Source of the DNA: a virus
DNA length: 20,123 nt
IMG/VR virus record: IMGVR_UViG_3300027749_002292
Span: 1-20,123 of that record
Direction: 5' to 3' (one strand)
The notes beneath the pieces were generated by a model. It made no database searches. It had not been told where the DNA came from and worked only from the letters and a program-made list of their open reading frames with translations. The translations under genes were made by a program, and so were the position numbers. Positions 1,789 to 19,859 of the stretch are shown here, one piece after another (position 1 is the stretch's first letter; each line of letters begins with the position of its first letter).

Positions 1789-3090
1789 ATGAATCTTCGT
1801 TTATCTTATCTAATACTAGCATTAAGCCTGCCTGCATTCTGTGACACAGTTCCCACTTATAATAAAGATATCGCACCGATTTTCCAGGAAAAATGCGAGA
1901 CATGTCACCGTGCTGGCCAAGGCGCACCGATGAACCTCTCCACCTACGAAGAAGTTCGTCCGTGGGCGAAGTCGATCAAACAGCGAGTGGCAACCCGTAA
2001 TATGCCACCGTGGCATATTGATAAAACCACAGGTATTCAGCAGTTCGCTAATGATCGTTCCCTGAATGAAAAACAGATTGCAACCGTCGTACAATGGGTT
2101 GATGCTGGTTCTCTTCAGGGCGACAAGAAAGATCTGGCTGCGGCGAAAGTCTGGCCCGATGAATCTGGTTGGCAGTATGCCAAGGTGATTGGCCAGGAAC
2201 CCGATTTTGTTGTGAAGTCCGAACCTTACACAGTCAAGGCTGTCGGTCAGGACGAATGGTGGAAGCCTGTATCTGATGTTCCTGTGACTGAGGAACGCTG
2301 GGTACGAGCAGTTGAGATGAGAGCAGGAACCATTGCCGGTCGCAAGATTACGCACCACGCACTCGCTCAACTTGAGCAGGTTGAGTCCGCATCAACATCT
2401 GATGTTGGAGGTCCTGCTGGTCCTGGTCTCTTTATGGAATGGGCCATTGGAAAATCCTATGACGCATTTCGAGCGGATTCAGGAAAGCTGCTTCTTCCTG
2501 GATCTAAGATTCGTTGGGACATCCATTATCACTCAGTTGGTGAAGCCATTCGAGATCACGTTGAACTTGCTGTATATTTGTATCCTGTTGGTTACAAGCC
2601 ACTGCATCGGGTTCGTCTAAGTAGTTTGTCTGCATATCCAACAAATTCTGATCTAGATATTCCTCCGAATTCAATTACTCAAACTCAATCATTTCATGTT
2701 ATGAAATCTGCTGGTCGAATTGAAAGTTTTCAACCCCATATGCATCTTCGTGGTAAGGCTATGTCGCTTGAAGCAATTCTTCCTACAGGTGAAGTTCAAA
2801 TGATAAATTATGTAGATAAATTTAATTTTAATTGGATGAATGCTTATATCTATACTGATGAATCTGCTCCTGTTCTTCCTCGTGGAACTATCCTTAGAGT
2901 AACGGCATATTATGACAATACTATTGCAAATAAGGACAACCCGGATCCCGACCAGTGGGTTGGTTATGGTGATCGTACAGTTGATGAGATGGGCCACAGC
3001 TGGAATAATATCACTAACCTAACTGATGCGGAATATAATGATTGGGCGGTGAAGCATAAAACAAAACCTAATCTAGCATCTCGAAAATAA
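1789..3090 (+). CDS. Exported cytochrome c / copper type II monooxygenase-like protein
   Basis: A 433-residue metabolic-type protein, unexpected in a replication cluster. Residues 1-~19 (NLRLSYLILALSLPAFC) look like a signal peptide, so the product should be exported. A haem-c domain follows: CETCH at 36-40 and a likely distal Met in NMPPW (~72). The remainder resembles the peptidylglycine-hydroxylase fold of copper type II ascorbate-dependent monooxygenases: a His pair at 189-190 (THHA), HYH at 246-248, HMH at 317-319 and Met 401 in DEMGHSW are candidate copper ligands and all are present. In bacterial relatives the substrate is generally unknown. The gene lies alone between 55 and 47 with its own late promoter and terminator, as expected for an acquired cassette. 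Base composition changes inside the gene, being GC-rich early and AT-rich from ~2610. The domain call is firm; the reaction is not known. Confidence 0.85.
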   Translation: MNLRLSYLILALSLPAFCDTVPTYNKDIAPIFQEKCETCHRAGQGAPMNLSTYEEVRPWAKSIKQRVATRNMPPWHIDKTTGIQQFANDRSLNEKQIATVVQWVDAGSLQGDKKDLAAAKVWPDESGWQYAKVIGQEPDFVVKSEPYTVKAVGQDEWWKPVSDVPVTEERWVRAVEMRAGTIAGRKITHHALAQLEQVESASTSDVGGPAGPGLFMEWAIGKSYDAFRADSGKLLLPGSKIRWDIHYHSVGEAIRDHVELAVYLYPVGYKPLHRVRLSSLSAYPTNSDLDIPPNSITQTQSFHVMKSAGRIESFQPHMHLRGKAMSLEAILPTGEVQMINYVDKFNFNWMNAYIYTDESAPVLPRGTILRVTAYYDNTIANKDNPDPDQWVGYGDRTVDEMGHSWNNITNLTDAEYNDWAVKHKTKPNLASRK

Positions 3091-3109
3091 CTAACTATCA
3101 AGTATAATC

Positions 3110-3139
3110 AAATCCTCCTGTCATGGCAGGAGGATTTTT
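3110..3139 (+). terminator. Rho-independent terminator after the monooxygenase gene
   Basis: Perfect 11-bp stem (AAATCCTCCTG, 3110-3120, with CAGGAGGATTT, 3127-3137) around a 6-base loop, followed by further T residues. It lies 20 bases after the stop codon and insulates the late-promoter cassette from gene 47. Confidence 0.85.
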
Positions 3140-3148
3140 AACATACAC

Positions 3149-3177
3149 TTTACTTTACTCTTAAAATATAGTATAAT
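3149..3177 (+). promoter_or_regulatory. Sigma70-like promoter for genes 47-46
   Basis: TTTACT (3149-3154), 17-bp spacer, TATAAT (3172-3177): the same hexamers as the gene 55 promoter. The leader is about 30 bases and carries TTGGAGAA before the ATG at 3216. Confidence 0.75.
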
Positions 3178-9375: not shown

Positions 9376-9538
9376 CTCTTTGTTTTTCGGCTGCTATCAT
9401 CAGAGATTCAACATAGAGAATGTCCCTCTCCAATTTATCCCTCATTTTAATTTCTCCTCGACATTTTCCTGTACGATACCAAAAGAAGCAAGATACTACA
9501 TAGAGTAATATAAGTATGATACCTTTGGTGTTATCCAT
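9356..9538 (-). CDS. Small single-pass membrane protein
   Basis: A 60-residue protein. Residues 6-21 (GIILILLYVVSCFFWY) form an N-terminal transmembrane helix, followed by a basic stretch (RTGKCRGEIKMRDK) and a charged amphipathic tail. There is no cleavage signal. The arrangement suggests an inner-membrane protein with its tail in the cytoplasm. Function unknown. Its ATG overlaps the stop of the upstream gene by eight bases and its end overlaps the I78-like gene, so the three form one coupled unit. Confidence 0.68.
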   Translation of the reverse strand: MDNTKGIILILLYVVSCFFWYRTGKCRGEIKMRDKLERDILYVESLMIAAEKQRGGDIAG

Positions 9539-9764
9539 TGAAGTTGGTCATCCCAAATTTAGTATAGGTGTCTTGGACCAATCCGGTGATCTCTTCCTTG
9601 GCTTTGATGGACGCATCATTTGCCGCAATCAAAGATTGCCACCGAGCATAGGAATGATACATTTCCACCTCAGCATCCTTGATTCGTTTCTCATTGTAGG
9701 AGAGACGACGATAGTTCTTGCGACGTTCTAAGTCCACTTTCAATCGTTCAATAATAGTTTTCAT
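9531..9764 (-). CDS. Small charged helical protein on a possible leaderless transcript
   Basis: A 77-residue protein (MKTIIERLKVDLERRKNYRR...), almost entirely Lys/Arg/Glu-rich and probably helical; function unknown. The frame is open further upstream to 9851, but that extension would cover a promoter and a hairpin, so the ATG at 9764 is chosen. The TACAAT -10 box ends exactly six bases before this ATG, so transcription should begin at or next to the A of ATG and leave no ribosome binding site. It heads a coupled unit with the membrane protein and the I78-like gene. Confidence 0.7.
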   Translation of the reverse strand: MKTIIERLKVDLERRKNYRRLSYNEKRIKDAEVEMYHSYARWQSLIAANDASIKAKEEITGLVQDTYTKFGMTNFNG

Positions 9765-9770
9765 AGAACT

Positions 9771-9799
9771 ATTGTACCGTATCCAGCCAAGGAAGTCAA
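9771..9799 (-). promoter_or_regulatory. Sigma70-like promoter with upstream 21-bp element
   Basis: TTGACT (9799-9794), 17-bp spacer, TACAAT (9776-9771), then AGTT. Six bases upstream of the -35 box lies a 21-bp element (9826-9806) that recurs at the same distance from the promoter at 17226. The two promoters also share TTGACTTC and GGTACAATAGTT. Confidence 0.75.
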
Positions 9800-9807
9800 C
9801 AAAAGAA

Positions 9808-9866
9808 TTCCCTTTAGAATCAACAAGATGCAAGGCATCTCTGCAAGTCATTGATTCTAAAGGGAA
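9808..9866. repeat. 16-bp perfect inverted repeat with nested hairpin after gene 32
   Basis: Arm 9808-9823 (TTCCCTTTAGAATCAA) is the exact complement of 9851-9866. The 27-base loop holds a second 6-bp hairpin, AGATGC-AAG-GCATCT (9826-9840). It begins 8 bases beyond the gene 32 stop codon, so as RNA it could protect or end the gene 32 transcript; as DNA the arms could be two operators. The left arm is part of the 21-bp promoter-associated element. Confidence 0.75.
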
Positions 9867-9873
9867 AATAGTT

Positions 9874-10764
9874 CTAGTCGTCTGCTAGACCCTTGAAGTA
9901 CGCCAAGGCATCATCCTCGTCGTCACCCGAAGCTTCAGGTGCCGCCCAAGGAGCATCCTCGGACTTGGTCTTTGGAGCAGATTCTCGAATCGTCGGCTTC
10001 GTTTCAGCAGTCGGACCAGCCTTTGCCGTGTTACCCAGTACACGATTCATTCGTGTCTTGAGTTCGTCATATGTCTTGAAGTTCTTCGGAGAAACGATTT
10101 CCTTCAGATCATACTCAGAAGTCCAGACCGCTTCCATCTTAGACTCATCACCTTCACAGATCGGAGACACCCCCTCGAAGAATGAGTTGTCATAATTAGG
10201 ATATCCTTCGACCTTGCGAACCTTGAGTCGGAAGTTGGCTCCCTTCCAAAGATCAAACACATCAATAGGCTTGTCGGTCTCAAACTCAGGCTTCAGAGCA
10301 TCCTGAATCTTCTGGAAGATCTTCTTTCCAAATTTATATAGGAATACCTTGCCTTCGTTCTTAGGATTGCGAGGATCAGATACTACAAGAATGTTTGTAA
10401 TGAAATGCTGCTTGCGTTTACGCTTGCGAACAATATCCTTGTTGGCATCAATACCTGTGTTCCAAAGTTCAGAATTGGTTTCTGAAACCGGATCAGGCTG
10501 ACCCAGCGTGGTGAGAGAGTTCTCGATGTACCATCCACCAGGACCCTGAAACCCGTGGGAGAATAGAGACACCCAGGGAATGTTGTTGTCCTTTGCTACC
10601 GGAAGGAATCGAATGAGTGCTGTGGCATTACCAGTCTTCTCATCAAGAGGCAGCGTCCAGTAACGGTCGTCAATATATGACTTGGTACTAGATAGCTTAT
10701 CCATTTCGGTAATAAGCTGATTGATATTTGCACTGCTTGTTTTTTTAAGGTCTTTGAAATTCAT
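9874..10764 (-). CDS. 32: gp32-like single-stranded DNA-binding protein
   Basis: A 296-residue homologue of T4 gp32, which coats single-stranded DNA and organises replication and recombination proteins. Visible parts are a basic LAST-like N-terminus (LKKTSSAN) for cooperativity, the binding core with SHGF...GGWYIEN (~68-80) and KRKQHFITNILVVSDPRNPK plus EGKVFLYKFGKKIFQKI (~115-155; T4 has [28 protein letters not shown]), and an acidic tail ending DDEDDALAYFKGLADD for partner proteins. The Cys zinc ligands of T4 gp32 are absent: the stretch after WYIEN reads SLTTLGQPDPVSETNSELW with no Cys. It has its own promoter inside gene 59 and a leader of about 85 bases, and AACAGGAGAA precedes the ATG. 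Confidence 0.95.
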   Translation of the reverse strand: MNFKDLKKTSSANINQLITEMDKLSSTKSYIDDRYWTLPLDEKTGNATALIRFLPVAKDNNIPWVSLFSHGFQGPGGWYIENSLTTLGQPDPVSETNSELWNTGIDANKDIVRKRKRKQHFITNILVVSDPRNPKNEGKVFLYKFGKKIFQKIQDALKPEFETDKPIDVFDLWKGANFRLKVRKVEGYPNYDNSFFEGVSPICEGDESKMEAVWTSEYDLKEIVSPKNFKTYDELKTRMNRVLGNTAKAGPTAETKPTIRESAPKTKSEDAPWAAPEASGDDEDDALAYFKGLADD

Positions 10765-10885: not shown

Positions 10886-11501
10886 GGGTGTTACTGATAA
10901 TATTTATGAGACGTTCTCGCTTTGGAATATGCTTTGAAAAGAATGGTTTGTATTTATCTATGAAAAATGTGGTTTCATTTACCAGAGGATCCAGAGAAAA
11001 CTTGGCCAGTCTATCAGTCACATCATATAACTTATCCAGACAGATGAAGGTTTCGTAGGATACAACATTCTGTTTGAGAAGATTATATATAATGGGTTTG
11101 TCTTCATCATCACCTTCCAGTAATCTCTTCTTTGTCACCTTGTTCTTGATACAATACGTCACGACATCAGAGACCTCTTTCTCGAATGTACGATCAAAGG
11201 CTTCCACATAACCCTTGGTCTTCAGATACTTCTTCTCATTATCCGGAGTCATCACATCTCGGATGTAGAAGTTCTTCTTCTCTTTGGCAGCAATCAACAA
11301 CTTATCAAGATACTTCTCAACATTGAATACCGATGCCATCTTCTCAAAGAAGTATCGATCCTTTCGTACTACGAATGCCTTGGGAGATGATCGTGTGCCG
11401 TGGCCTCGGAAGAAGTCGAATGACTGAGAGTTGAAATGAAGTTTCATCTCAACATAATATTTGTAATATTGGTAGGCTCGTTCCTGCGTTGACATAGTCA
11501 T
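10869..11501 (-). CDS. 59: gp59-like replicative helicase loader
   Basis: A 210-residue helical protein matching T4 gp59, which loads the gp41 helicase onto gp32-coated forks. The clearest matches are VRKDRYFFEKMASVF (T4 RRDKYFFQKLSEKY, near residue 45) and YNLLKQNVVSYETFICLDKL (T4 FKLLQSNIISFETFILLDSF, near residue 145). Its position directly upstream of gene 32 is as in T4, which supports the call. The ATG at 11501 overlaps the TGA of the Ser-Gly repeat gene (ATGA); a second ATG two codons later is equally possible. The end of the gene contains the gene 32 promoter. Confidence 0.93.
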   Translation of the reverse strand: MTMSTQERAYQYYKYYVEMKLHFNSQSFDFFRGHGTRSSPKAFVVRKDRYFFEKMASVFNVEKYLDKLLIAAKEKKNFYIRDVMTPDNEKKYLKTKGYVEAFDRTFEKEVSDVVTYCIKNKVTKKRLLEGDDEDKPIIYNLLKQNVVSYETFICLDKLYDVTDRLAKFSLDPLVNETTFFIDKYKPFFSKHIPKRERLINIISNTLDLMN

Positions 11502-11683
11502 TTTCCAGACCCAGACCTAGACCCAGACCCAGACCCAGACCAAGACCGATACTCAGACCAAGACCCAGACCCAGACCCAGACCAAGACCAAGACCAAGAC
11601 CCAGACCCAGACCAAGACCTAGCCCAAGACCCAGACCCAGACCCAGAGTACACAATTCGTTTTAATCTTGATTTCTTTGTCAT
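11498..11683 (-). CDS. Ser-Gly/Trp dipeptide-repeat small protein
   Basis: A 61-residue protein. After MTKKSRLKRIVY come 23 dipeptides, mostly SG, SW and SR, ending in SGK. It starts three bases after the gene 33 stop and its TGA overlaps the gene 59 ATG, so it fits the operon exactly, which favours a translated gene over random repeat DNA. There is no clear ribosome binding site, so reinitiation after gene 33 is likely. No fold or function can be predicted. It may simply be a repeat expansion that stayed open, keeping gene 59 translation coupled. Confidence 0.5.
   Translation of the reverse strand: MTKKSRLKRIVYSGSGSGSWARSWSGSGSWSWSWSGSGSGSWSEYRSWSGSGSGSRSGSGK
11507..11644. repeat. Hexamer tandem repeat, 23 units
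   Basis: Twenty-three consecutive 6-base units, AGACCC or AGACCA on the + strand with a few variants (AGACCT, AGACCG, ATACTC, AGCCCA). There are no indels across the 138 bases, so one reading frame is kept throughout. Almost all variation falls on the sixth base. Confidence 0.95.
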
Positions 11684-15775: not shown

Positions 15776-15937
15776 CTACTCTTCGTCGTCGAACCCTTCT
15801 GGTAACTCCTTATCTGTATCTTCCTTGAAATTTTCCTTCAAGCCATAACGAATATAAACATCTGCTGGCCCAAAGTCAGCATTTTGGTAAAAGTATAGTA
15901 GAAATTCAAGTTCAGTAGCTCGTTCTTTAATTGGAAT
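15776..15937 (-). CDS. Small conserved-looking phage protein with probable ATT start
   Basis: A 53-residue protein, probable sequence MPIKERATELEFLLYFYQ, then NADFGPADVYIRYGLKENF and ELPEGFDDEE. The FGPAD...R...F...LPEGF pattern is familiar from short hypothetical proteins of T4-like cyanophages, which supports real coding. The frame is open upstream through the end of cobS but has no ATG, GTG or TTG. At the cobS stop the sequence is TAATT, exactly where other genes here have TAATG, and AGGGGAG lies 11 bases upstream. So the start is most likely ATT at 15937, a rare start codon; a frameshift extension of cobS is the alternative. Confidence 0.7.
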   Translation of the reverse strand: MPIKERATELEFLLYFYQNADFGPADVYIRYGLKENFKEDTDKELPEGFDDEE

Positions 15938-17139
15938 TAGAAAGTAGGCTCCCCTGGTCCAAACGTAACATCGGACTCCACAGGAAGTTCCTGACCAGCA
16001 ATCCCAATAGTAGCATCGAACTTCTGATACAGAGACTTGAAGGATACCTTGGTCTCATCATCAAATCGAGCGATGCAATATTCAATGGCCTTCATACGAT
16101 TCTTGGTTCCACCGAAGATGTAGAAGTTCAGAATATGAATCAGGCGACGAGTAGTTACGATCTCATCAATAGCACCTTCCTTGAAGGTATGGCGAATCGC
16201 CGCAGCCCACTCAATGAGCCGAGGAACAAATTCTAATGTATCCTTATCAGTGACCTTATTCTTGGCGAGGATCAAATTCAGAATCTTGGTTTCCACCACA
16301 GTCGAAGGATAGTCGTGTTCAATTGTGATGGCAAAGCGATCCAAGAAGGCTTCATTGAGAATATTACTACCCATATATCGACCATCAGACGATCCCTTAC
16401 CCTTGCTGTTAGCTGTGGCAACCACAGTAAATCCAGCAGCAGGATAAACCAATTCGTTGGTCTTCTTGATATAGATAGCATTGCCTTCAAGAATTGGCTG
16501 AAGGCACATGATCTTGGGAGACCCAAGATTGATCTCGTCCAGCAACAGCACGGCACCACGTTTCATTGCTTCGATTGCAGGACCGTCCTGCCAGATAGTA
16601 TTACCATCAACCAGTCGGAAGCCACCAATCAGATCGTCCTCATCAGTCACCTCTGTGATGTTGGCACGAATGAGTTCTCGTTTGGCCTTGGCACATGCTT
16701 CATATACCATCTTGGTCTTGCCATTGCCAGACTCACCAGTGATATACACCGGAAAGAATGAGTTGGCTTTCATCAGATTATATACAATACGATAATCGCC
16801 GAATGCCACAAAGTCTGGGTCTGACGCAGGCACCAGACTCTTATCACACTTTGGAGTGAGAGCCACATTAATAACAGGGGTAGGCTCGGTGGCCTGTTGT
16901 CGTTTAGATACAATGTTCATTTCAACTTTGGTGTCCTTGGTAGTAGGAGAGGATGTCCTATACAGACCACGAGAAATTTTATATTCAGGAGTCTTACAAA
17001 ACTGCTGATAACCCGAGGCATTACCAGTGAACTCGAAGACCTGAATCAATTGGCTGCGAGTCAGATACTCCTGATTGTCAGGAAAGGCTGCCTGCACATC
17101 TTCGATAAACTCTTGCATCGGATTCAATCTGCGTTTCAT
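15937..17139 (-). CDS. cobS: CobS/MoxR-like AAA+ ATPase
   Basis: A 400-residue AAA+ ATPase of the CobS/MoxR group. Residues 1-~60 look like a small helical domain (RSQLIQVFEFTGNASGYQQF). The ATPase has Walker A GESGNGKT (135-142), Walker B LLLDEIN (198-204), sensor 1 ATAN (~241-244) and arginine finger FLDRF (265-269). CobS with CobT inserts cobalt during cobalamin synthesis, and cobS is widespread in marine T4-likes; but MoxR relatives more generally act with a von Willebrand A partner to remodel proteins. The divergent gene at 17775 encodes such a partner. A TTGACA/TATACT promoter ends only eight bases before the ATG, so the leader is nearly absent. Confidence 0.88.
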   Translation of the reverse strand: MKRRLNPMQEFIEDVQAAFPDNQEYLTRSQLIQVFEFTGNASGYQQFCKTPEYKISRGLYRTSSPTTKDTKVEMNIVSKRQQATEPTPVINVALTPKCDKSLVPASDPDFVAFGDYRIVYNLMKANSFFPVYITGESGNGKTKMVYEACAKAKRELIRANITEVTDEDDLIGGFRLVDGNTIWQDGPAIEAMKRGAVLLLDEINLGSPKIMCLQPILEGNAIYIKKTNELVYPAAGFTVVATANSKGKGSSDGRYMGSNILNEAFLDRFAITIEHDYPSTVVETKILNLILAKNKVTDKDTLEFVPRLIEWAAAIRHTFKEGAIDEIVTTRRLIHILNFYIFGGTKNRMKAIEYCIARFDDETKVSFKSLYQKFDATIGIAGQELPVESDVTFGPGEPTF

Positions 17140-17147
17140 ATGAACCC

Positions 17148-17176
17148 AGTATAGCGGATCCTTGGAGAGATGTCAA
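17148..17176 (-). promoter_or_regulatory. cobS promoter, almost leaderless
   Basis: TTGACA (17176-17171), 17-bp spacer, TATACT (17153-17148) on the - strand, the best -35 box in the window. Predicted start is about two bases before the ATG at 17139. It is back to back with the + strand promoter at 17226. Confidence 0.8.
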
Positions 17177-17198
17177 CTAAAATTTCAACAGTATATTT

Positions 17199-17219
17199 TT
17201 GTTGATTCTAAAGGGAATT
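17199..17219 (+). promoter_or_regulatory. 21-bp promoter-associated element
   Basis: The 21 bases here, containing TTGATTCTAAAGGGAATT, recur exactly on the - strand at 9826-9806. In both places the element ends six bases before a TTGACTTC -35 region. The core ATTC...GAAT has partial dyad symmetry, as an operator or activator site would. Confidence 0.7.
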
Positions 17220-17225
17220 ATTTTC

Positions 17226-17258
17226 TTGACTTCTCTCGCAGCATAAGGTACAATAGTT
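17226..17258 (+). promoter_or_regulatory. Promoter of the beta-helix gene, copy 1 of a 33-bp repeat
   Basis: TTGACT (17226-17231), 17-bp spacer, TACAAT (17249-17254), AGTT. The whole 33 bases recur without change at 17720-17752. It drives the repeat gene starting at 17282. Confidence 0.82.
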
Positions 17259-17281
17259 ACATAAGGTTTGATTGAAACGAT

Positions 17282-17716
17282 ATGACACTAGAAATCTTGA
17301 AACTAACTTTCCCTGATGCCACTTTGGATACCTGGCACCAGCATTCAAATGGTGGGGGCTGGGTCCAGAACACAGCCTTCGTGGCCGACACAGCTTGGGT
17401 TGGGCCAGATGCCATGGTCTATGATAATGCCAAGGTCTCTGGTAAGGCCGAGATCACAGGTAATGCCCAGGTCTCGGGTACGGCCTGGGTCTTGGATGCG
17501 GCCTGGGTCTCGGGTAATGCTAGGGTCTCGGGTAATGCTAGGGTCCGGGGTAATACCGAGATATCGGGTAATGCTCAGGTCTTGGGTAATGCCGTGGTCT
17601 TGGGTAATGCCGTGGTCTCTGGTGATGCCGTGGTCTCTGGTGATGCCGTGGTCTCTGGTGATGCTAGGGTCTCGGGTTATACCGTGGTCTCGGATGATGC
17701 CGTGGTTTCAGAATAG
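17282..17716 (+). CDS. Left-handed beta-helix hexapeptide-repeat protein
   Basis: A 144-residue protein. Residues 1-~30 (LEILKLTFPDATLDTWHQHSNGGGW) form a short unique head. The rest is tandem six-residue units such as VSGNAR, VLGNAV and VSGDAV, with a small hydrophobic at every sixth position, the pattern of a left-handed parallel beta-helix. Acetyltransferases with this fold carry a catalytic His and extra loops; none is visible, so it is probably a scaffold, DNA-mimic-like or decoy solenoid rather than an enzyme. The 18-base DNA repeats allow other frames to stay open, but only this one has a promoter, start and regular hexads. It stands alone between two identical promoters, like a mobile cassette. 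Confidence 0.78.
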   Translation: MTLEILKLTFPDATLDTWHQHSNGGGWVQNTAFVADTAWVGPDAMVYDNAKVSGKAEITGNAQVSGTAWVLDAAWVSGNARVSGNARVRGNTEISGNAQVLGNAVVLGNAVVSGDAVVSGDAVVSGDARVSGYTVVSDDAVVSE

Positions 17717-17719
17717 TTG

Positions 17720-17752
17720 TTGACTTCTCTCGCAGCATAAGGTACAATAGTT
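17720..17752 (+). promoter_or_regulatory. Promoter of the VWA gene, copy 2 of the 33-bp repeat
   Basis: Identical to 17226-17258: TTGACT (17720-17725), 17-bp spacer, TACAAT (17743-17748). It begins four bases after the beta-helix gene stop and serves the gene at 17775, whose ribosome binding site is ACGGAG. The 21-bp upstream element is absent from this copy. Confidence 0.82.
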
Positions 17753-17774: not shown

Positions 17775-19859
17775 ATGTTAAGAGAACACACAGAGAAACT
17801 CGCCAAGCTGATGGCTGGTGAAGACATCGATGTAATTCAAAAGAATGCTCCGACTGCATATTTCGATCTACAATATCGTCGTCTCATCATTCCTAACTGG
17901 AAGAATCTCTCTACGGTCGAAGAAGAAATGATCGTCGGTCATGAGATCGGACATGCTCTGTATACTCCTCTAGATATTTGGATGACTGAAACAGATGCGT
18001 TCGAGGGTAGTAAGAATGTATTCCGGAATATAATTAATGTGATCGAGGATGCTCGTATCGAGCGCAAGGTCAAAACCAAATATCCTGGAATGAGACAGAC
18101 ATTCTACTTCGGCTATGAAGAACTCTTCGAACGTGGTATCTTCTGCATAGATGAGACGACGACTCTGCTGGGAAATATCATCGATCAGATCAACTGGCAC
18201 TACAAGATTCCTGGTAAAGTTGACTTCACCAAACACAAGATGTTTGATCACTTCGTCACTAAGATTGATGCCGTTGTCACATTCGAAGATGTGATTGCTC
18301 TTAGTAAAGAAGTGTATCAATATTGTAAAGAAGAACACGAAAATAAGAAATCCGAAGGTAATAAGAAATCCGAATCTGAAGGTGGCTCGGAATCTGAAAG
18401 TGACTCGGAATCTGAAGGTGGCTCGGAATCTGAAAGTGACTCGGAATCTGAAGGTGGCTCGGAATCTGAAGGGGACCAAGAGTCTGAAGGTGGAGAAGAT
18501 CCGTCTAGCAAAGACTCATTCGAGTCCAACTATGGTAGCAATAAGTTAGAGAAAGACAAAGAAGAATTTCTCAAAAATACTCAGGATGAGATTAAATATG
18601 ATGCTGAGACGAAATATATTCCTGAGATCGATCTCAAGAAAATTATCATTTCCTACAAGACAGTCTTAGACGAATTTAACTGTGCGGTTGTAGATTCTTC
18701 GAATCCTGAAGATGAAGATGACGAGGATATCGAACCTATCGACTTTAATATTTCCTCCTCGCTGAAATCATTCAACAAGACTCGGAAGTCTACCATTGAT
18801 TATTACTCCAAGATCTTCGAGATGAGAAAGAAGGCCTCCGAATACAAGAAGACTCTGAACTTCCGATCTGGTAAGTTGGATATGAATAAACTCACCAACT
18901 ATAAGTTCGACGACAAGATCTTCATGACAGGTCAGATCAAATTTAAAGGTAAGAATCATGGTCTGGTTGTGTTCCTGGATATGTCAAGCTCGATGCGTGC
19001 AGTGTTCAAATCGTGTCTGGTTCAGGTTTTGGAACTGGTTTCGTTCTGCCGGAACTCTAGAATTCCTGTGAGTGTGTATGGATTCAGTGACCAAGCAGGT
19101 TTAGGTAAGAACCCAAACTGGTATGGCTACAAGGTAGATATTGCTGAGGAACATAAAGTTGGGATGTATCAACCATTTCACCTGATTGAATTATTTTCTC
19201 CTCAGATGTCGATTAAAGACTATAATACCATGTTCAATAAGATTGTCTCGGGTCAGATCCAACATAATAAATACTTCTATTTGTCTGGAACTGCTCTGGC
19301 TCCTGCGTGTCTTTGTCTTGAGGCTGTGGTCAATAAGATGAAGAAGGAGAATGGATCAGAGGTTGTCAATGTGGTGTTCCTCACTGATGGTGGGGACAGC
19401 GATGGTCATGACTTTTTTTCCTATCAGGGTTCAGTATTTGATCCCAAAACCAAGATGAAGGTATCCTTCGATACTATTGAGAAGACTCTGAATCATCATA
19501 GTAAGTTCCCAAGCTATTCGACCTATACTGTGCCGATGGCCATCCTAGAACTTATGAAGAAGAGAGTCCCCTATGTCAATGTAGTCAATTTCTACATCAC
19601 ACCTAAGATCAAACAAATATGGAATGGTCGTAGCTATATCAACAATCCTGATACGGGATTAGCTTCAATAGATACTGCCAAGTTGCTGGGATATGATGAG
19701 ACCTATTTTATCGACCCCGTATGTTTCAAAGACAAGAAGGGTGATGGGATAAAGTCTGCTACCACAATCGAAGATATAAATACTTCTTATATGTCTTCCA
19801 ATAAGAGCACAAAGGAGAAGCAGGCCATCGTGAGAAGTTTTATTGATAAGATCTGCTAA
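17775..19859 (+). CDS. HEXXH metallopeptidase-like / von Willebrand A protein (CobT-like)
   Basis: A 694-residue multi-part protein. Near the N-terminus EEEMIVGHEIGHALYTPLD carries a zinc-peptidase HEXXH (56-60), followed by NVIEDARIERKVK (~88-100), where a Glu could complete the metal site. Residues ~190-245 are a Ser/Glu/Gly repeat linker. The C-terminal half is a von Willebrand A domain with MIDAS motif DMSSS (402-406), a SGTALAP Thr segment and FLTDGGDSD. MIDAS proteins of this kind work with CobS/MoxR ATPases, and the CobS-like gene lies nearby in divergent orientation. CobT proper has a comparable acidic linker and VWA domain, so annotators often call it CobT; cobalt insertion in a phage is doubtful, and a proteolytic or remodelling role fits the HEXXH better. 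Confidence 0.87.
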   Translation: MLREHTEKLAKLMAGEDIDVIQKNAPTAYFDLQYRRLIIPNWKNLSTVEEEMIVGHEIGHALYTPLDIWMTETDAFEGSKNVFRNIINVIEDARIERKVKTKYPGMRQTFYFGYEELFERGIFCIDETTTLLGNIIDQINWHYKIPGKVDFTKHKMFDHFVTKIDAVVTFEDVIALSKEVYQYCKEEHENKKSEGNKKSESEGGSESESDSESEGGSESESDSESEGGSESEGDQESEGGEDPSSKDSFESNYGSNKLEKDKEEFLKNTQDEIKYDAETKYIPEIDLKKIIISYKTVLDEFNCAVVDSSNPEDEDDEDIEPIDFNISSSLKSFNKTRKSTIDYYSKIFEMRKKASEYKKTLNFRSGKLDMNKLTNYKFDDKIFMTGQIKFKGKNHGLVVFLDMSSSMRAVFKSCLVQVLELVSFCRNSRIPVSVYGFSDQAGLGKNPNWYGYKVDIAEEHKVGMYQPFHLIELFSPQMSIKDYNTMFNKIVSGQIQHNKYFYLSGTALAPACLCLEAVVNKMKKENGSEVVNVVFLTDGGDSDGHDFFSYQGSVFDPKTKMKVSFDTIEKTLNHHSKFPSYSTYTVPMAILELMKKRVPYVNVVNFYITPKIKQIWNGRSYINNPDTGLASIDTAKLLGYDETYFIDPVCFKDKKGDGIKSATTIEDINTSYMSSNKSTKEKQAIVRSFIDKIC
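18375..18482. repeat. 18-base tandem repeat inside the VWA gene
   Basis: Six consecutive 18-base units. The first five alternate perfectly between two versions (TCTGAAGGTGGCTCGGAA and TCTGAAAGTGACTCGGAA), and the sixth is degenerate. They encode the SESEGG/SESESD linker. The length can change in whole units without breaking the frame. Confidence 0.9.
19775..19782 (+). promoter_or_regulatory. Possible internal late promoter TATAAATA
   Basis: An exact TATAAATA inside the last codons of the VWA gene, 85 bases before the next ATG. It could give late transcription of the thioredoxin-like gene, but an octamer this AT-rich can arise by chance in coding DNA. Confidence 0.35.

Follow-up and report, generated by a model that had tools for sequence, protein, structure and literature searches.

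Promoter-early stem-loops (PeSLs) have been described in the phages RB49/phi1, T4/PST and KVP40/nt-1. Interspersed with small accessory genes, whose content varies between relatives at the elements, PeSLs are composites of a stem-loop and a sigma-70-type promoter that occur in several copies per T4-type genome, and the sequence family analyzed here shares these features, the stem-loop at several of its members. As outlined in PMC4503421, such elements mediate gene shuffling between related T4-like phages, and earlier work quoted there refers to them as 'mobile regulatory cassettes' of T4-type phages (Arbiol 2010; Comeau 2014; both via PMC4503421). For the region that it examined in cyanophage S-PM2, the same source notes a much lower density of surrounding candidate elements than other T4-like phages have (PMC4503421). 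A dense set of elements in a phage distantly related to the cyanophages is therefore of some interest.

The stretch of DNA analyzed here (the window) is the whole 20,123-nucleotide record IMGVR_UViG_3300027749_002292, which derives from an uncultured virus rather than from RB49/phi1, T4/PST or KVP40/nt-1. Judging from its gene content, the window is a fragment of a T4-type phage. Profile matches identify the marker genes for gp32 (the ssDNA-binding protein; 9874-10764, minus strand; PF08804, 6e-48), UvsW and the late sigma factor. Other genes encode gp46/47-like proteins, arranged in the same order as in P-TIM40, together with a Clp-like ATPase, PhoH, a CobS-like ATPase and a VWA/CobT-like protein. 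No close isolate phage was found, and the sole megablast match to isolates covers 44 bp of a recombination endonuclease gene in phage S-H38. The gp32 and UvsW proteins are approximately 46-52% identical to those of Kyanoviridae (cyanophages), Pelagibacter phages and Methylophilales phages. A search of the genome_contigs collection returned no relative, and the comparison set consists of IMG/VR contigs L003 through L019, all of which are short and uncultured (L005 is contig L004, reversed). Most core proteins encoded in the gp32-uvsW-phoH region of these relatives are more than 90% identical to those of the window. Contig L017 codes for a major capsid protein, portal and tail sheath, and L018 encodes a clamp loader.

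Kyanoviridae cyanophages, which are likewise T4-type, also carry a gene for a CobS-like ATPase beside a VWA/CobT-like gene. In the cyanophages examined, cobS and this 'peptidase' gene are close and co-directional, whereas in the clade of the window they are divergent and separated by a promoter-rich accessory region. The cobS gene of the window (15937-17139, minus strand; CobS/MoxR-like AAA ATPase; AAA_5, 3e-19; PHROG 249, 1e-101) lies directly behind its own predicted promoter (TTGACA-N17-TATACT; 17176-17148, minus strand), which scores 11/12 and is among the top-scoring promoters of the window. The VWA/CobT-like gene (17775-19859, plus strand) encodes 694 amino acids and matches PHROG 459 'peptidase' (E 3e-124) and, more weakly, PHROG 5298, a cobalamin biosynthesis protein. 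Its product carries an acidic linker encoded by an 18-bp repeat (SESEGG; 18350-18495), whose length varies among relatives.

Between these two genes, on the plus strand, lie two copies of a 33-nt sequence at 17226-17258 (copy 1) and 17720-17752 (copy 2), spaced 494 bp apart. As the preliminary description had stated, the copies are identical (33/33 nt; 35/36 if three flanking bases are included), and both correspond to a predicted sigma-70-type promoter, TTGACT-N17-TACAAT, hereafter type A. Apart from coding tandem repeats, the pair is the sole exact direct repeat of at least 20 nt among those listed for the window, and the longest exact repeat expected by chance is 13-16 nt (20 order-1 simulations). 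The bracketing of a hexapeptide-repeat gene noted earlier is also borne out: copy 1 precedes the open reading frame at 17282-17716 (plus strand), and the -35 box of copy 2, which precedes the VWA gene, begins 3 nt past its stop codon. Copy 1 is followed by a leader (17259-17281) with an AAGG Shine-Dalgarno sequence, a variant of the family leader TATAAGGTTGATTGA according to the leader alignment. The repeat is limited to the promoter core, and the leaders behind the two copies differ.

The bracketed gene encodes a 144-residue hexapeptide-repeat beta-solenoid protein built from 18-bp repeat units. It matches PF18836 (YdcK) at 1e-13, with a score of 50.4 bits against a gathering cut-off of 30, and PHROGs 7964 and 5070 at 3e-32; these phage PHROGs have no assigned function. 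An AlphaFold model (pLDDT 81) places two-residue strands every six residues, and a PDB fold search with this model gave no match at E<=0.001. The protein has the G-[ND]-A-x-V hexapeptide repeats of YdcK-type proteins, and differs from them by an N-terminal segment, ETWHQHSNGGGWV, and by a length of 144-252 residues that is set by the number of 18-bp units. Hexapeptide genes in the set vary over this range by whole units (window 17375-17716; L005:59-817; L015:5533-6165), and this variation resembles minisatellite change within the gene for a beta-solenoid protein.

A third, diverged copy of the promoter (type B; 9799-9767, minus strand), absent from the preliminary description, matches the type A pair at 27/33 positions. 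All three copies score 10/12 in a sigma-70-type scan and have 17-nt spacers. Between the third copy and copy 1 the likeness extends over 60 nt (17199-17258 versus 9767-9826; 87%) into the right arm of a stem-loop, of which copy 1 retains only this remnant (17199-17225, plus strand), the left arm being gone. At the third copy, a strong terminator-like stem-loop (9808-9866, minus strand; -30.9 kcal/mol; z -7.0; 0/200 shuffles) is positioned between gp32 and promoter B, which feeds a 77-amino-acid gene directly (9531-9764, minus strand). The -10 box lies 6 nt before the ATG of this gene (9762-9776, minus strand), and its transcript is therefore predicted to be leaderless.

The region behind gp32 differs among relatives in what it carries. 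The window has the stem-loop, promoter B and the 77-amino-acid gene, with no hexapeptide gene. L012, L013 and L015 share this stem-loop and promoter and carry a hexapeptide gene between the promoter and the 77-amino-acid gene. L015 additionally has a type D promoter and a shortened second gene between the hexapeptide gene and the 77-amino-acid gene. In L019 this second gene is present at full length (101 amino acids) behind the same stem-loop and the same -35 box and spacer, and there is no hexapeptide gene. The window thus represents the empty state at the gp32 locus and the filled state at the cobS/VWA locus. The sequence AATAGTT occurs both at the empty junction and at the end of the gene that L019 has there, which suggests that the junction arose by deletion at a microhomology. 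The hexapeptide gene at L012:1859-2344, which stops early and is followed by no promoter, is by its sequence a decaying copy.

A predicted promoter immediately precedes every hexapeptide gene in the set, and five of the seven genes end with AGAATAG-NNN-TTGAC, such that the stop codon is 3 nt from the next -35 box. The promoters behind these five genes are of types A, D or E. The genes likewise have a common 5′ leader (TATAAGGTTGATTGA), from which that of the window departs by one insertion and one substitution. Constant gene ends beside differing promoters are the expected trace of exchanges that occur inside promoters. Moreover, a second, independent bracket is present in L017, where a 76-amino-acid ORF is enclosed by a pair of type D promoters that are the same at all 33 nt.

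The divergent promoters at the cobS/VWA locus of L007 and L008 are identical type C copies, and the spacer between them (L007:938-1128; L008:596-774) matches at 168/178 positions when one sequence is reverse complemented, versus 118/179 in direct orientation. The spacer of L006 has the orientation of that in L007. Such an inversion is expected from recombination between inverted copies, and the spacer between the divergent stem-loop promoters is possibly an invertible regulatory region. A small loop inside the stem-loop is likewise inverted between L007 and L008. Our literature search found no paper on promoter-mediated inversion in T4-like phages.

Stem-loops are unevenly preserved among members of the family. 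When compared with shuffled sequences, the folds are pronounced at 9808-9866 as noted above, in L006 (z -5.2) and in L015 (z -8.8), and less marked in L017 (z -3.5) and L008 (z -3.1). The region upstream of copy 1 (17140-17226) folds no better than its shuffles (z -0.37). Copy 1 retains the stem-loop characteristic of PeSLs in decayed form only and copy 2 lacks it, and it is present at the gp32-locus member and in relatives; contig 3300032284_001174 carries three stem-loop modules at two loci. Both bases of one stem position differ (C-G to G-C) when the gp32-locus stems are compared with the stems of L006, L007 and L017; in L008 and L018 this position is mismatched. RNAalifold yields no common long stem over all 14 modules, which is due to the fact that some left arms differ.

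Several features set these modules apart from PeSLs. The promoters at 17226 and 17720 lack an intact stem-loop, and a boundary here needs no more than a promoter placed 3 nt behind the preceding stop codon. Also unlike PeSLs, the modules carry the conserved leader, and divergent promoter pairs in this clade enclose an inverted spacer. From these comparisons, the family would appear to work like the PeSL system and the 17226/17720 pair to be a stem-loop-less variant of it, where promoter activity, timing and termination are all predicted properties.

We consider it probable (roughly three chances in four) that the promoter copies serve as homologous-recombination joints for accessory genes, and that the identical pair in the window reflects local homogenisation. 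According to this proposal, a promoter/stem-loop/leader family is scattered through the genomes of this T4-type clade, the two 33-bp repeats being sigma-70-type promoters of that family, and its members would act both as regulatory signals and as recombination joints. Recombination between copies, either within one genome or between co-infecting phages, could then move, delete, duplicate or flip the units that lie between them. Genes between promoters indeed differ among relatives by presence or absence, duplication and replacement at both the cobS/VWA and gp32 loci. In the lineage of the window, exchange or gene conversion would have made the upstream promoter equal to the downstream one, or, alternatively, an older match would have been lost in the relatives. 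Conversion of the upstream copy by the downstream copy is the simplest path, since type A is kept downstream in three genomes and the upstream promoter is variable, but this direction, read from three genomes, is tentative. A more far-reaching version would have the promoter/stem-loop copies be standing recombination sites that actively reshape accessory regions, including by inversion between divergent promoters, such that phages within one population differ in their small genes and regulatory wiring. We regard this stronger version as rather improbable.

The preliminary description had instead proposed that the gene was captured by promoter duplication, whereby its insertion brought along an additional VWA promoter copy and the 33-bp pair is the scar. 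The exact identity at both ends of the gene would fit such an event, as would the three bases preceding copy 1 (TTC), which are those that precede the downstream copy in L005. However, relatives that carry the gene beside dissimilar promoters had been named as the outcome that would count against duplication, and such relatives were found. L005 and L006, both of which have a hexapeptide gene directly before the VWA gene, share the downstream type A promoter at 33/33 positions, but the promoter upstream of their hexapeptide gene is TTGACACCACGCCCACCATTTGCTATAATTTCT in L005 and TTGCCTTTGTTCCTCGAATCAGCTATACTTGTT in L006, each matching type A at only 20/33 positions. The gene thus occupies the same place in these phages without the duplicate, and among these three genomes a type A promoter upstream of the hexapeptide gene at this locus occurs in the window alone. 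Elsewhere the hexapeptide gene uses other promoter types, and the repeat in the window covers the promoter core without the leader. We therefore rejected capture by promoter duplication on the basis of the dissimilar upstream promoters, and consider it unlikely. As a caution for the proposal of local homogenisation, the VWA proteins of the phages that share type A at 33/33 positions are 76-80% identical. Identity of the pair within the window consequently need not mean a recent copy, and it provides no date for the event.

This same conservation could be taken to mean that selection acted by itself, with promoters that serve a shared polymerase becoming or remaining alike through convergence or strong constraint and without any recombination. 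Type A is unusually conserved between phages, and most family members have good -35 and -10 hexamers. However, each of the other strong promoters of the window has a spacer that shares only 5-11 of 17 positions with that of type A, and the 17 spacer bases are therefore free to vary. The copies are also alike outside the hexamers, in the stem-loop and leader; gene content changes at the promoter sites, and a spacer is inverted. We give selection as the only cause the same low standing as capture. Still less credible is a dedicated mobile element or site-specific inversion system that targets the stem-loop or promoter, for which the spacer inverted between inverted promoter copies (L007 versus L008), the inverted loop inside the stem-loop and the occurrence of the same gene at two loci can be cited, but no recombinase or transposase was detected among the window proteins scanned, and the boundaries fall at promoter homology that general phage recombination can explain. 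T4-type phages are known for a high recombination rate.

Under the preferred reading of promoters as recombination joints, recombination between copy 1 and copy 2 would delete the hexapeptide gene, with the VWA gene still under the same promoter sequence. Because that sequence would be unchanged, loss of the gene is predicted to be roughly neutral for VWA transcription. This excision model, first put forward in the preliminary description, is plausible and is matched in kind by the series of presence and absence at the gp32 locus. The portrayal of the gene as a removable cassette holds in that its presence, number and position vary at promoter boundaries, but none of the relatives compared shows the VWA gene with a single promoter left by excision.

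Two other arrangements occur at this locus. The start of L008 equals the end of L004 in an exact 110-bp overlap between contigs from one sample, and joining L008 with L004/L005 gives the order promoter C, gene A, promoter E, gene B, promoter A and VWA. From this overlap we infer a tandem pair of hexapeptide genes before VWA in a single genome, each with its own promoter. L007 has no hexapeptide gene; instead, a 72-amino-acid gene behind a type C stem-loop promoter abuts the VWA gene with no promoter between them. Towards cobS, both L007 and L008 carry an additional gene of approximately 100 codons, likewise behind a type C promoter. The arrangement in L007 also bears on the earlier statement that the cassette separates an ATPase from its likely partner. 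The two genes are indeed close and on one strand in cyanophages, but cobS and VWA are divergent in the clade of the window with or without the hexapeptide gene, and therefore the cassette is not the cause of their separation.

Other insertions and repeats were observed in the window. A gene for a 433-amino-acid cytochrome-c-like protein, with weak matches to PF13442 and PF00034 and a signal-peptide-like start, lies between the late sigma factor gene gp55 and gp47, which are separated by approximately 10 bp in L019. The insert (1789-3177) ends with a predicted hairpin terminator (3110-3137) and a predicted sigma-70-like promoter (3149-3177), and thus looks like another insertion of a gene, stem-loop and promoter. 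A 61-amino-acid ORF of SGSGSW repeats, encoded by 6- and 12-bp DNA repeats, is located at 11498-11683 (minus strand), and a similar ORF is present at L017:137-373 (minus strand).

The shuffling mechanism proposed here is already known, and the form that it appears to take in the clade of the window is new. Promoter-mediated shuffling of genes has been known from a small number of cultured T4-type phages, and these findings would extend it to an uncultured clade. The two loci together offer a compact natural series in which accessory positions are empty, filled, doubled, replaced or inverted, and the idea that promoters serve as recombination joints can now be tested with existing metagenome reads. 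Identity of flanking promoters is, moreover, by itself no mark of gene capture.
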